A model generated the notes under the pieces. It was not told the origin of the DNA, made no database searches, and was given only the letters and a program-made list of their open reading frames with translations. Below are positions 3,150 to 53,369 of a DNA stretch of 64,000 bases, in pieces. Positions within the stretch are counted from its first letter, which is position 1, and each line of letters begins with the position of its first letter. Source of the DNA: Bacillota bacterium (lineage in GTDB: Bacteria > Bacillota > UBA4882 > UBA8346); assembly GCA_029974635.1 (NCBI GenBank), contig JARKQY010000007.1:1-64000 (forward strand), written 5' to 3'. The translations under genes and the position numbers were made by a program.

Positions 3150-3488
3150 ATGGAAAATTTAAATTGGTCCAAATCCGAAAAAACCATTGCCCGGAACGCA
3201 TTTCAAGCTGCTTATCGGCGTGAATGCGCAGCTATCGCCGCCAAGCTCAAACAAATGGCCGGTTTTGTTAAGGAGCCGCCTGATCTTTGGCAGATCCATG
3301 ATTATCTTACAGAAATGAAGGAACAAACCGATATTAAATATGATTACCGGTATTCAGTTTTGATTTCGGTCTTCGCCAATCTGCTGAATGAAGGATGGTT
3401 AAAAGAATCCGACCTTGCAGGATTGCATAAAGACAAGATCGAAGCGATAAATAAACTGGCGCGGCTTCGGCGGGAAATATGGGCATAA
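3150..3488 (+). CDS. Fluorescence Recovery Protein (FRP)-like small helical protein
   Basis: This is a 112-residue soluble, mostly helical protein with no signal peptide. From memory of the family, it lines up over almost its whole length with cyanobacterial FRP (about 109 residues), the helical dimer that detaches the orange carotenoid protein (OCP) from phycobilisomes. Shared blocks are AYRRE (22-26), DLW-x2-HD (45-51), KYD-x-R-x-SV (63-70), VFA-x-LL-x-EG (74-82) and KLARL near the C terminus. W47, H50 and D51 fall where Synechocystis FRP has W50, H53 and D54, residues of its functional region. The position of R60 is a lysine here. Nothing nearby suggests photosynthesis, so OCP is an unlikely partner and the real role is unknown. 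An AAGGTG lies about 12 bases before the ATG. Family membership is likely; function is not. Confidence 0.75.
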   Translation: MENLNWSKSEKTIARNAFQAAYRRECAAIAAKLKQMAGFVKEPPDLWQIHDYLTEMKEQTDIKYDYRYSVLISVFANLLNEGWLKESDLAGLHKDKIEAINKLARLRREIWA

Positions 3489-3607
3489 ACCCGAATTGGG
3501 CAAAAACCGATTATTATTTTTCACACTTCTTCATGGTTTCTTTATTTTTATTTTATGACTGAATAATATAATCAAAATAAATCAAACAAAAACAGGAGGT
3601 ATTCTCA

Positions 3608-4411
3608 ATGAAAAAATGGCTTATCGGTTCAATGATTACAGTTTTAATCGGTTCCGTACCATCCGGCACATATGCGGCGAACCATATCAGCGGCCAATCA
3701 ATAAACTCAAATCAAATGATTCAACAATCCTATCAAGCCAGAGATAACCGGGACCGTGATGAAAGAGAAAGAAAAACCCGCCCGGATGACGACTGGGAAC
3801 GCAGGGAACGCGAACGGAAGGAACGGGAACGGAAGGAGCAAGAACGCAGGAAACAAGAAGAAAGAGAACGGGAACGCAAAGAACAGGAGCAAAAAGAACG
3901 GGAGCGCAGAGAACGGGAACAAAGAGAACTGGAACGCAGGGAAAAGGAACAGCGAGAGCTGGAGTGGCGGGAATGGTCACGCCGGAATAATAAAATCAAT
4001 GATCGTTTGGCCAGGGAACGCTGGGAAAGAGAACAGAGAGAGCGCGAAAATAGCGATGCCCGTTATACCATCCGTCGGACTGCTTCCATTATCACTCTAG
4101 CCCAACGGAACGCCCGGATTAATTTCGTAGGTTTGGCTCTTGTCGTCGCTCATCAGCAAAGAGCTACTGATTTATATAGGGCTGGATTTTACCGGGAAGC
4201 TATATTCCATTCATTACGGGCCCGGAGGCTTGCGATAACTATCATTACTAAAAACAAAGTGGTCTGGCGCGATCCGGTAGTGGATACCCGGGAAGAAAGC
4301 TATTATCGCGTGGCGCCAAGAGATAATGACATAGACCTCCGGATCGATAGAAGCCGGATGGCGAAAGATAATGAAGCAGTTAAAATCATTATTAATATCG
4401 ATATAAACTGA
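3608..4411 (+). CDS. Secreted Arg/Glu-rich helical protein of unknown function
   Basis: The 267-residue product starts with a signal peptide (residues 1-24, cleavage after TYA-A). Residues 45-150 are almost only Arg, Glu, Lys and Gln in short repeats such as RERERKE and REREQRE. This is typical of a rigid single alpha-helix or coiled coil. A compact C-terminal part (about 155-220, TIRRTASIITLAQRNA followed by a helical stretch) is followed by an acidic/basic tail. An AGGAGG site lies 8 bases before the ATG, and a strong terminator follows. The charged repeat makes long antisense frames that are not genes. No family was recognised. A spacer or stalk anchored at the cell surface is a guess. Confidence 0.75.
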   Translation: MKKWLIGSMITVLIGSVPSGTYAANHISGQSINSNQMIQQSYQARDNRDRDERERKTRPDDDWERRERERKERERKEQERRKQEERERERKEQEQKERERREREQRELERREKEQRELEWREWSRRNNKINDRLARERWEREQRERENSDARYTIRRTASIITLAQRNARINFVGLALVVAHQQRATDLYRAGFYREAIFHSLRARRLAITIITKNKVVWRDPVVDTREESYYRVAPRDNDIDLRIDRSRMAKDNEAVKIIINIDIN

Positions 4412-8794: not shown

Positions 8795-8987
8795 ATGAAA
8801 AACTTATTCGTTACTCGACTGTCGCCGTGAAAAAAGTTGATCAACCAACGAATAAGTATGCAAAATATGCTGTGAAAGATGAGTTAGTTACAGTTAAGGT
8901 GTCATATTCATACCAGCTCCACCATATATTTAGATTGCATCTTTGGTTGCACTGGAGATGCAATTTCTATAAAAGGTGGCGACATAT
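8795..8987 (+). promoter_or_regulatory. Structured leader before the glycosyltransferase gene
   Basis: An 11-bp inverted repeat ACTTATTCGTT (8802-8812) / AACGAATAAGT (8847-8857) encloses the palindrome GTTGATCAAC (8836-8845). A second hairpin ATTGCATC (8934-8941) / GATGCAAT (8957-8964) ends just before the ribosome site. CCACC (8919-8923) is complementary to the GGTGG of the ribosome site (8975-8979). A weak 11-codon frame starts at 8795. No known riboswitch consensus was recognised. A folded 5' untranslated region that controls translation is inference. Confidence 0.4.
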
Positions 8988-10331
8988 ATGCCGAATCCGT
9001 TATCTAATCAAAACATGGAAATAAAAAGGACAACCCGTCGTCCGTTTTATTGGCCGGTTAGATATCGTTTTGTTTTAGCCCTGGGTTTCGCGTTTATTTG
9101 GATGACCTTTTGCTCTTGGATAAGCTTTCCGTGGGTAAAAGATCTGGCAAGCCAAATCGGATTCTATCCTGCTTGGTATATAGTCATTTTTGTAGCACTT
9201 GTTCCGGGTTTTTTAAATATGTTTCTGTTATTTAGCATTATCATGGACAAGCCGCCAAAACTGATACTGACGCGTGATTACCCGCCAATTACCATACTCA
9301 CAGCCGCTTATAACGAGGAAGCTTCCATTGCGGAAACCTTAAAATCCATACAACAACAGGACTATCCGGCGGAAATCGACATCATTGTTATTGATGATGG
9401 TTCGGTGGATCGAACCCGTGAAATTATCTCCATGCTTACCCTGCCAAACCTCAGGTTGATTGCGGCAAATCACGGTGGAAAATCGGCGGCTCTCAACTTG
9501 GGATTAGAACAAGTCGCAACTCAATATGTAATTACAATTGATGCTGATACACATTTACATCCTCAAGCATTAACCCGTATTGTCTCCCGGATTACCCAAG
9601 CTCCGGAATCAACAGCAGCCATAGCCGGAACTATTATGGTAAAAAATTCAAGAGATTCGCTGATTACCCGTTTGCAAGATTGGGATTATGCCTTGGCAAT
9701 TACCTCCGTCAAACGCCAACAAGCATTGTATCAGGGAACTTTAGTTGCCCAAGGCGCCTTTAGCATTTATAAAACCGCGGCTTTGCGTTTGGTTAACGGT
9801 TGGTCTCAAACCGTTGGGGAAGACATCGTTCTTACCTGGTCTTTATTGCAAAAAGGCTATCGGACCGGGTTTGAACCCACAGCTTTGGCATTTACGGAGG
9901 TTCCGAAAGACTTACGGCGTTTTGCCCGTCAACGGAAACGATGGGCGCGCGGAATGATTGAAAGCTTCAAGATCAATTTTCGGATTTTATTTGAAAAATA
10001 CCGGATGGTAACTTTTTTGATCTTTTTAGATCTTCTTTTCCCAGTTCTCGATTTTACGTTTTCTTTTATTTTCTTACCAGGGATTATGCTGGCTTTTGGC
10101 GGTAATTTCATCCTGGCCGGTCCCATGACCTTATCCATTTTACCGCTGACTTTTTTAATCAGTGCGGTAATGTACCGCCATTTAAAAAATGTATTTGGTT
10201 TATTCAACCTGAAAATCCGCCGCAACCGTCTGGGGTTTGTCCTATATCTTTTAATATATCAGGTTTTATTGTCCCCAGTGAGTCTTTGGGGTTATACCGA
10301 AGAGTTTTTCGGGAAATTAAAACGCTGGTAA
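8988..10331 (+). CDS. Membrane processive glycosyltransferase, family 2
   Basis: The 447-residue protein has two N-terminal membrane segments (about 25-45 and 55-80), a GT2 catalytic domain and three to four C-terminal membrane segments. Catalytic features are AYNEEASIAETL, VIDDGSVDRT (first Asp pair), IDADTH (DxD), GEDI and QRKRW, the QxxRW motif of processive synthases. The layout matches PgaC/IcaA and cellulose- or hyaluronan-synthase relatives, so it probably makes a beta-linked exopolysaccharide. The polymer cannot be told. The ATG at 8988 is preferred because AAAGGTGG lies 8 bases upstream; the GTG at 8976 is inside that site. No partner deacetylase or c-di-GMP gene is adjacent. Confidence 0.88.
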   Translation: MPNPLSNQNMEIKRTTRRPFYWPVRYRFVLALGFAFIWMTFCSWISFPWVKDLASQIGFYPAWYIVIFVALVPGFLNMFLLFSIIMDKPPKLILTRDYPPITILTAAYNEEASIAETLKSIQQQDYPAEIDIIVIDDGSVDRTREIISMLTLPNLRLIAANHGGKSAALNLGLEQVATQYVITIDADTHLHPQALTRIVSRITQAPESTAAIAGTIMVKNSRDSLITRLQDWDYALAITSVKRQQALYQGTLVAQGAFSIYKTAALRLVNGWSQTVGEDIVLTWSLLQKGYRTGFEPTALAFTEVPKDLRRFARQRKRWARGMIESFKINFRILFEKYRMVTFLIFLDLLFPVLDFTFSFIFLPGIMLAFGGNFILAGPMTLSILPLTFLISAVMYRHLKNVFGLFNLKIRRNRLGFVLYLLIYQVLLSPVSLWGYTEEFFGKLKRW

Positions 10332-53230: not shown

Positions 53231-53252
53231 GAAGATATCATTTCTATTACTG

Positions 53253-53340
53253 GAATTGGGGAGCTGGATGAAACCGGCTGAGAGGGAACTGATTGGTTCC
53301 GACCCGCGAACCTGATCTGGGTAATGCCAGCGGAGGAAGA
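53253..53340 (+). promoter_or_regulatory. TPP riboswitch (THI element)
   Basis: The conserved blocks are all present in order: GGGGAGC, the pyrimidine-sensing GCTGAGAGGG (53277-53286), GACCC, GAACCTGATCTGGGTAATGCCAGCGGAGGAA (53308-53338, only the consensus quoted in parts here). Thiamine pyrophosphate binding would shut off the genes downstream. Confidence 0.97.
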
Positions 53341-53369
53341 GGATTATCTCAAAGTTCTTTTTGGTAATG

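Follow-up and report, generated by a model that had tools for sequence, protein, structure and literature searches.

Proteins related to the cyanobacterial fluorescence recovery protein (FRP), whose known partner is the orange carotenoid protein (OCP), have been described outside the cyanobacteria as FRP-like proteins (FRPLs) that share the FRP dimer fold (Steube et al., 2023; PMC10172135). FRPL genomes lack OCP, HCP, and CTDH, and the function of the family was concluded to be unrelated to OCP and possibly linked to starvation (PMC10172135). The FRPL of Pseudomonas borbori, for which a structure has been solved (8AG8), has a starvation-dependent level and forms polar foci in its host, and a Desulfobacteraceae FRPL speeds the recovery of OCP1 (PMC10172135). 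FRP contacts OCP through F76, K102, and L106, at least one of which is missing from most FRPLs (PMC10172135); W50 is among its listed dimer-interface residues, and the highly conserved R60 lies on its concave face (PMC6155142). The main text of the 2023 study does not mention Firmicutes, Bacillota, or Chloroflexi, and contains the string "archae" solely in the title of a cited reference (PMC10172135). What FRP-like proteins did ancestrally is a question raised in the literature, the cyanobacterial photoprotection system having recruited this regulator from an OCP-less genome.

The window considered here is the first 64,000 nucleotides of contig JARKQY010000007.1 from a Bacillota bacterium. The protein encoded near its start is a divergent additional FRPL and belongs to a family that was already known. 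A preliminary description of this DNA had proposed an FRP homologue working apart from OCP and had considered that such a case would be new; the first part stands, and the second gives way to the FRPLs of OCP-less genomes published in 2023 (PMC10172135).

The gene, its product, and the host genome

The features to which the text refers are as follows, residues at the left being those of the window protein and reference positions those of Synechocystis FRP.
3150-3488, + strand: FRPL gene, recognized by its PF18032 match, PDB-sequence matches, and predicted fold
3165-3461, + strand: PF18032 FRP domain, residues 6-104, from the genome-wide profile search
3288-3302, + strand: W47 to D51 (W-Q-I-H-D), equivalents of W50, H53, and D54, from a gap-free alignment
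3318-3320, + strand: codon of K57, at the R60 position, from the alignment
3366-3368, + strand: codon of S73, at the F76 position, OCP contact lost, from the alignment and published contacts
3444-3446, + strand: codon of A99, at the K102 position, OCP contact lost, from the alignment and published contacts

The open reading frame starts with ATG and is an intact, full-length frame of 112 codons. Its product had been said to match FRP along its whole length, and the Pfam search agrees, with all 99 positions of the PF18032 profile covered (E = 9.8e-24) at 84.1 bits against a curated cut-off of 26.6 bits; across the whole host genome this profile finds a single copy, the window gene. Among PDB sequences, phmmer aligned the protein without gaps to Fremyella FRP (5TZ0; 1.1e-23, 86.9 bits), the P. 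borbori FRPL (8AG8; 4.1e-21, 78.6 bits), and Synechocystis FRP (4JDQ/4JDX; ~1e-18). A single-chain AlphaFold2 model, built from an input alignment of 55 sequences collected in this analysis, reached a mean pLDDT of 94 and has the helical FRP fold: Foldseek returned E-values of 2.6e-8 to FRP and 6.9e-8 to FRPL, the top matches (5TZ0, 8AG8, and 4JDX/4JDQ, seven chains) gave query TM scores of 0.77-0.84, and scores fell sharply below the FRP and FRPL entries. Both the profile and the all-helical fold thus place the protein in the superfamily formed by FRP and FRPL. It is probably a homodimer, given this homology and dimer-interface positions (listed in PMC6155142) most of which are hydrophobic, P43 and C26 being among the exceptions.

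The host assembly comprises 4.29 Mb in 59 contigs and is 88% complete, so that an OCP-like gene could be missing from it. Within that coverage, no Pfam match was found anywhere in the genome for the OCP N-domain (Carot_N), the NTF2 fold of the OCP/CTDH C-domain, phytoene synthase (SQS_PSY), or phycobiliproteins (Phycobilisome), and the carotenoid and phycobilisome profile searches gave the expected matches in control genomes. With neither Carot_N nor NTF2 detected, the host resembles the genomes without OCP, HCP, and CTDH in which FRPLs were described. One 332-residue frame on contig C21 gave two weak SnoaL_2 matches and was considered as an NTF2-fold partner, but SnoaL_2 is common and the match is no evidence for one. 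Carot_N was missing from all 44 non-cyanobacterial FRPL genomes surveyed, the host included, and present in both cyanobacterial controls, in agreement with what Steube et al. (2023) stated for a smaller set.

The possibility that the contig is a contaminant was also considered; a phosphoglucomutase gene 3.5 kb downstream of the FRPL gene is 77-79% identical to its counterparts in genomes of the same family, and the contig therefore fits the host genome and is not an obvious contaminant.

Residues of the OCP-contact surface and of the FRPL class

The Trp/His/Asp trio that had been put forward as a retained functional site is present (W47, H50, D51), but it is a weak argument for shared function, because W50 is a dimer-interface residue and His and Asp at positions 53 and 54 vary among FRPLs. 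Retention of W47 accordingly says "same dimer" and not "same partner". At the OCP contacts, F76, K102, and L106 are replaced by S73, A99, and L103, so that the leucine alone is kept of the three and the set expected of a cyanobacterial OCP regulator is incomplete. The Arg60 likewise expected of such a regulator is Lys (K57), at a position that is Arg in every other row of the alignment except those of P. borbori (Gln) and L078 (Gly). With two contact residues lost and Lys at R60, the window protein is predicted not to regulate OCP. Two direct lines of evidence speak for the OCP-independence of the window FRPL: OCP genes were not detected, and contact residues are lost.

Conservation was counted in a dereplicated set of 38 FRPLs. 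Residues at the OCP-contact positions change freely among them, Phe76 occurring in 16 and Lys102 in five, and eight positions are invariant in all 38, namely W9, E13, K14, A24, W50, L56, F78, and L81 in Synechocystis numbering (W6, E10, K11, A21, W47, L53, F75, and L78 in the window protein). Mostly kept, in window numbering, are S7, A14, R15, E25, D61, V74, L89, G91, K96, and I100. The invariance of KYDYRYS/KYDYRYSxL is inflated, since the collection scan demanded that motif; L108, a relative found by profile, carries KYDFRYS. K11 is found in 38/38 FRPLs against 24/39 cyanobacterial sequences, and R15 in 34/38 FRPLs against mainly Gln or Lys in cyanobacteria. K11/R15 is an FRPL-class signature, added by the present analysis; the class difference points to a surface that would be in use among FRPLs and relaxed in FRPs, and it makes the two residues candidates for a partner search by mutation.

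Distribution, ancestry, and gene neighbourhoods

Among 149 relatives of the host, FRP was found in the host genome alone, and in the phylum it was found in 4 of 398 genomes, host included. A motif scan of GTDB genomes yielded 137 relatives of the protein, of which 80 were kept; these come from Cyanobacteria, Thermodesulfobacteriota, Acidobacteriota, Proteobacteria, Bacillota, Chloroflexota, Ignavibacteriota, Bacteroidota, Planctomycetota, Aminicenantes, KSB1, and, among archaea, six Methanothrix. Contamination is an unlikely source of the Methanothrix sequences, because they cluster in the tree (95/70) and one has a neighbour of the archaeal family DUF2111. A search for plasmid, phage, or viral relatives found none. 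In one Desulfuromonadales metagenome-assembled genome (L007), a single contig bears two FRPL genes separated by 5 kb (3526-3852 and 8887-9213), and one Acidobacteria genome of the same kind has FRPL on two contigs (L010 and L013). In three related Methanothrix genomes, the gene immediately upstream of FRPL, and on its strand, encodes a 314-residue protein with HEAT/PBS-lyase repeats (Pfam scan including the L016 copy); the two genes may form one operon.
L016, 9017-9961; L018, 1311-2255; L019, 7463-8407: Methanothrix gene for the 314-residue protein

In the tree, cyanobacterial FRPs form one clade (37/37 rows, support 100/98), and the window protein lies outside it, as an FRPL should. It groups with FRPLs of Thermodesulfobacteriota (Syntrophales) and Acidobacteriota and one of Proteobacteria (94/85, not starred) on a long end branch (0.46), and the FRPLs of its phylum-mates are grouped elsewhere with high support (99/99). 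A clade uniting it with four phylum-mates is absent from the best tree, but forcing the window protein into their group costs 12.6 log units and is not rejected by the AU test (p-AU 0.09). Composition gives no signal of transfer (gene GC 43.4%, window 43.2%). Horizontal acquisition of the window FRPL is nevertheless likely, on account of the patchy distribution and not of the tree.

These data bear on whether the protein might be a true FRP, recently acquired from cyanobacteria and still able to regulate an OCP-like carotenoid protein. Such an origin would fit the trio, the higher score of cyanobacterial 5TZ0 over the P. borbori FRPL among PDB sequences, and the effect of the Desulfobacteraceae FRPL on OCP1 noted above (PMC10172135). 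It is nonetheless very improbable, since the protein is at most 47% identical to cyanobacterial sequences, against ~57% for Desulfuromonadales/Syntrophales FRPLs, the cyanobacterial clade that excludes the protein is fully supported, F76, K102, and R60 are replaced, and the host genome gave no match for the OCP N-domain, NTF2, or phytoene synthase.

FRPL genes appear to have decayed in some genomes. In the phylum of L022, FRP matches occur in 6/395 genomes, and three of them (L110, L111, and L112) are cut C-terminal halves of FRPL, one with an internal stop (L111): an apparent case of decay. The L111 and L112 remnants (about 1500-2300) run in frame into a protein that we take to be RsmG-like; they were considered as FRP-RsmG fusion proteins, a reading dropped when inspection revealed cut remnants, one of them with a stop. 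That the window copy is itself drifting or functionally degenerate could be argued from these remnants, from its long end branch, from Lys at the near-universal Arg60, and from Ser at position 76. Degeneration is quite improbable, however, for a frame that is intact and full length, keeps the other near-invariant positions, and has a confidently predicted fold, and the P. borbori FRPL, which has Gln at position 60, also does without R60 yet folds, dimerizes, and has been studied by expression in its host (PMC10172135). Ten pairs of close FRPL relatives gave dN/dS (omega) values of 0.10-0.42, the window gene itself being without a close relative; these relatives are under purifying selection, and their genes are thus maintained in hosts without detected OCP.

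The window FRPL is flanked by genes for a beta-helix surface protein (- strand), a secreted charged coiled-coil protein, a SIMPL/DUF541 protein, a NosD-like repeat protein, phosphoglucomutase, and a family-2 glycosyltransferase, none of them light-related. The earlier remark that nothing nearby suggests carotenoid or phycobilisome biology therefore holds for the neighbours and, within 88% completeness, for the genome. The coiled-coil protein (3608-4411, + strand) is extremely Arg/Glu-rich and has no Pfam match; its C-terminal 120 residues recur in same-family genomes at 43-46% identity, with several copies in one. A TPP riboswitch (53247-53355, + strand, 57 bits) is the sole Rfam match within the window. 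When 706 neighbouring ORFs from 46 loci were clustered, no conserved operon partner emerged, neighbours failing to recur across phyla: a diffuse cluster that includes the window's two ABC transporters spans seven loci at scattered distances, and the remaining clusters are small groups, mostly among close relatives. SIMPL (DUF541) occurs at +2 in the window and +1 in L081 and, by phmmer, at no other FRPL locus, and is regarded as a coincidence.

Several loci raise the idea that mobile or toxin-antitoxin-rich islands carry FRPL as an accessory gene with a defence- or toxin-antitoxin-related role. In other hosts, at a distance of up to about two genes from FRPL, lie HicA (L050), HigB (L024), HEPN (L022), TumE (L014), PemK and Phd/ParE (L081, L083), and tyrosine integrase and transposase families, and genes 4-9.5 kb away include at most one such family. 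This role is unlikely: the contrast (near, 6/37 loci; far, 0-1/28; p 0.03-0.13) belongs to an idea that arose after inspection of the data, the toxin-antitoxin families vary from locus to locus, none lies near the window gene, and plasmid, phage, and viral relatives were not found. The excess, weak and post hoc, hints that FRPL moves about as part of variable islands. At an acidobacterial locus (L072), integrase and pRiA4 ORF3 families are among the genes beside FRPL.

Proposed role and comparison with known systems

The reading preferred here, held with reasonable though not full confidence, is that the window protein is an FRPL of an OCP-less host acting as a cytosolic adaptor whose target in the host is a protein different from OCP, with a probable role in the response to stress or starvation. 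A small, all-helical PF18032 protein, probably homodimeric, would have been patchily inherited by a bacterium without OCP, where it would most likely bind its partner in the cytosol. The term adaptor is chosen because the only known activity of the FRP family is partner binding through a conserved surface, as by FRP on OCP, and the stress link is drawn from the starvation-dependent level and polar foci of the P. borbori protein (PMC10172135). The partner would read residues conserved across FRPLs (W6, S7, E10, K11, R15, E25, W47, D61, and K63-S69) and not the variable OCP-contact positions.

A broader and more speculative proposal, which is possible but doubtful, is that FRPLs are an ancient family of dimeric adaptors that transfer has spread through bacteria and methanogenic archaea and that share a single conserved cellular partner, which recognizes an FRPL-wide patch of E10/K11/R15, W47, and K63-S69, a patch that the window FRPL would use without the canonical R60. 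If this were true, identifying the partner would show what the ancestors of FRP did before cyanobacterial photoprotection recruited it. The relatives collected here extend the range of FRPLs to Methanothrix, Bacillota, Chloroflexota, Planctomycetota, KSB1, and Aminicenantes; the window FRPL adds one divergent member to the family and does not establish a new mechanism.

The nearest relatives found are FRPLs of Desulfuromonadales, Syntrophales, and Acidobacteria (L005, L006, and L009-L011; 54-61% identity), which resemble the window protein in that Carot_N is absent from the genomes tested; they differ in keeping R60 and, in most cases, F76, and their gene neighbourhoods are unrelated to that of the window. 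The P. borbori FRPL (8AG8) shares the FRP fold, an OCP-less host, ~39% identity over a gap-free full-length alignment, and an incomplete OCP-contact set, but has F76, Y102, and S106 where the window protein has S73, A99, and L103, carries Gln and not Lys at position 60, and comes from another phylum. With cyanobacterial FRP (Slr1964, 4JDX; Fremyella, 5TZ0) the window protein has in common the fold, W50, H53, the KYD..S motif, and a hydrophobic dimer interface; it differs in belonging to a host without detected OCP, in the loss of two of three OCP contacts and the change of R60 to Lys, and in the FRPL-type K11/R15 that accompanies its position outside the cyanobacterial clade.
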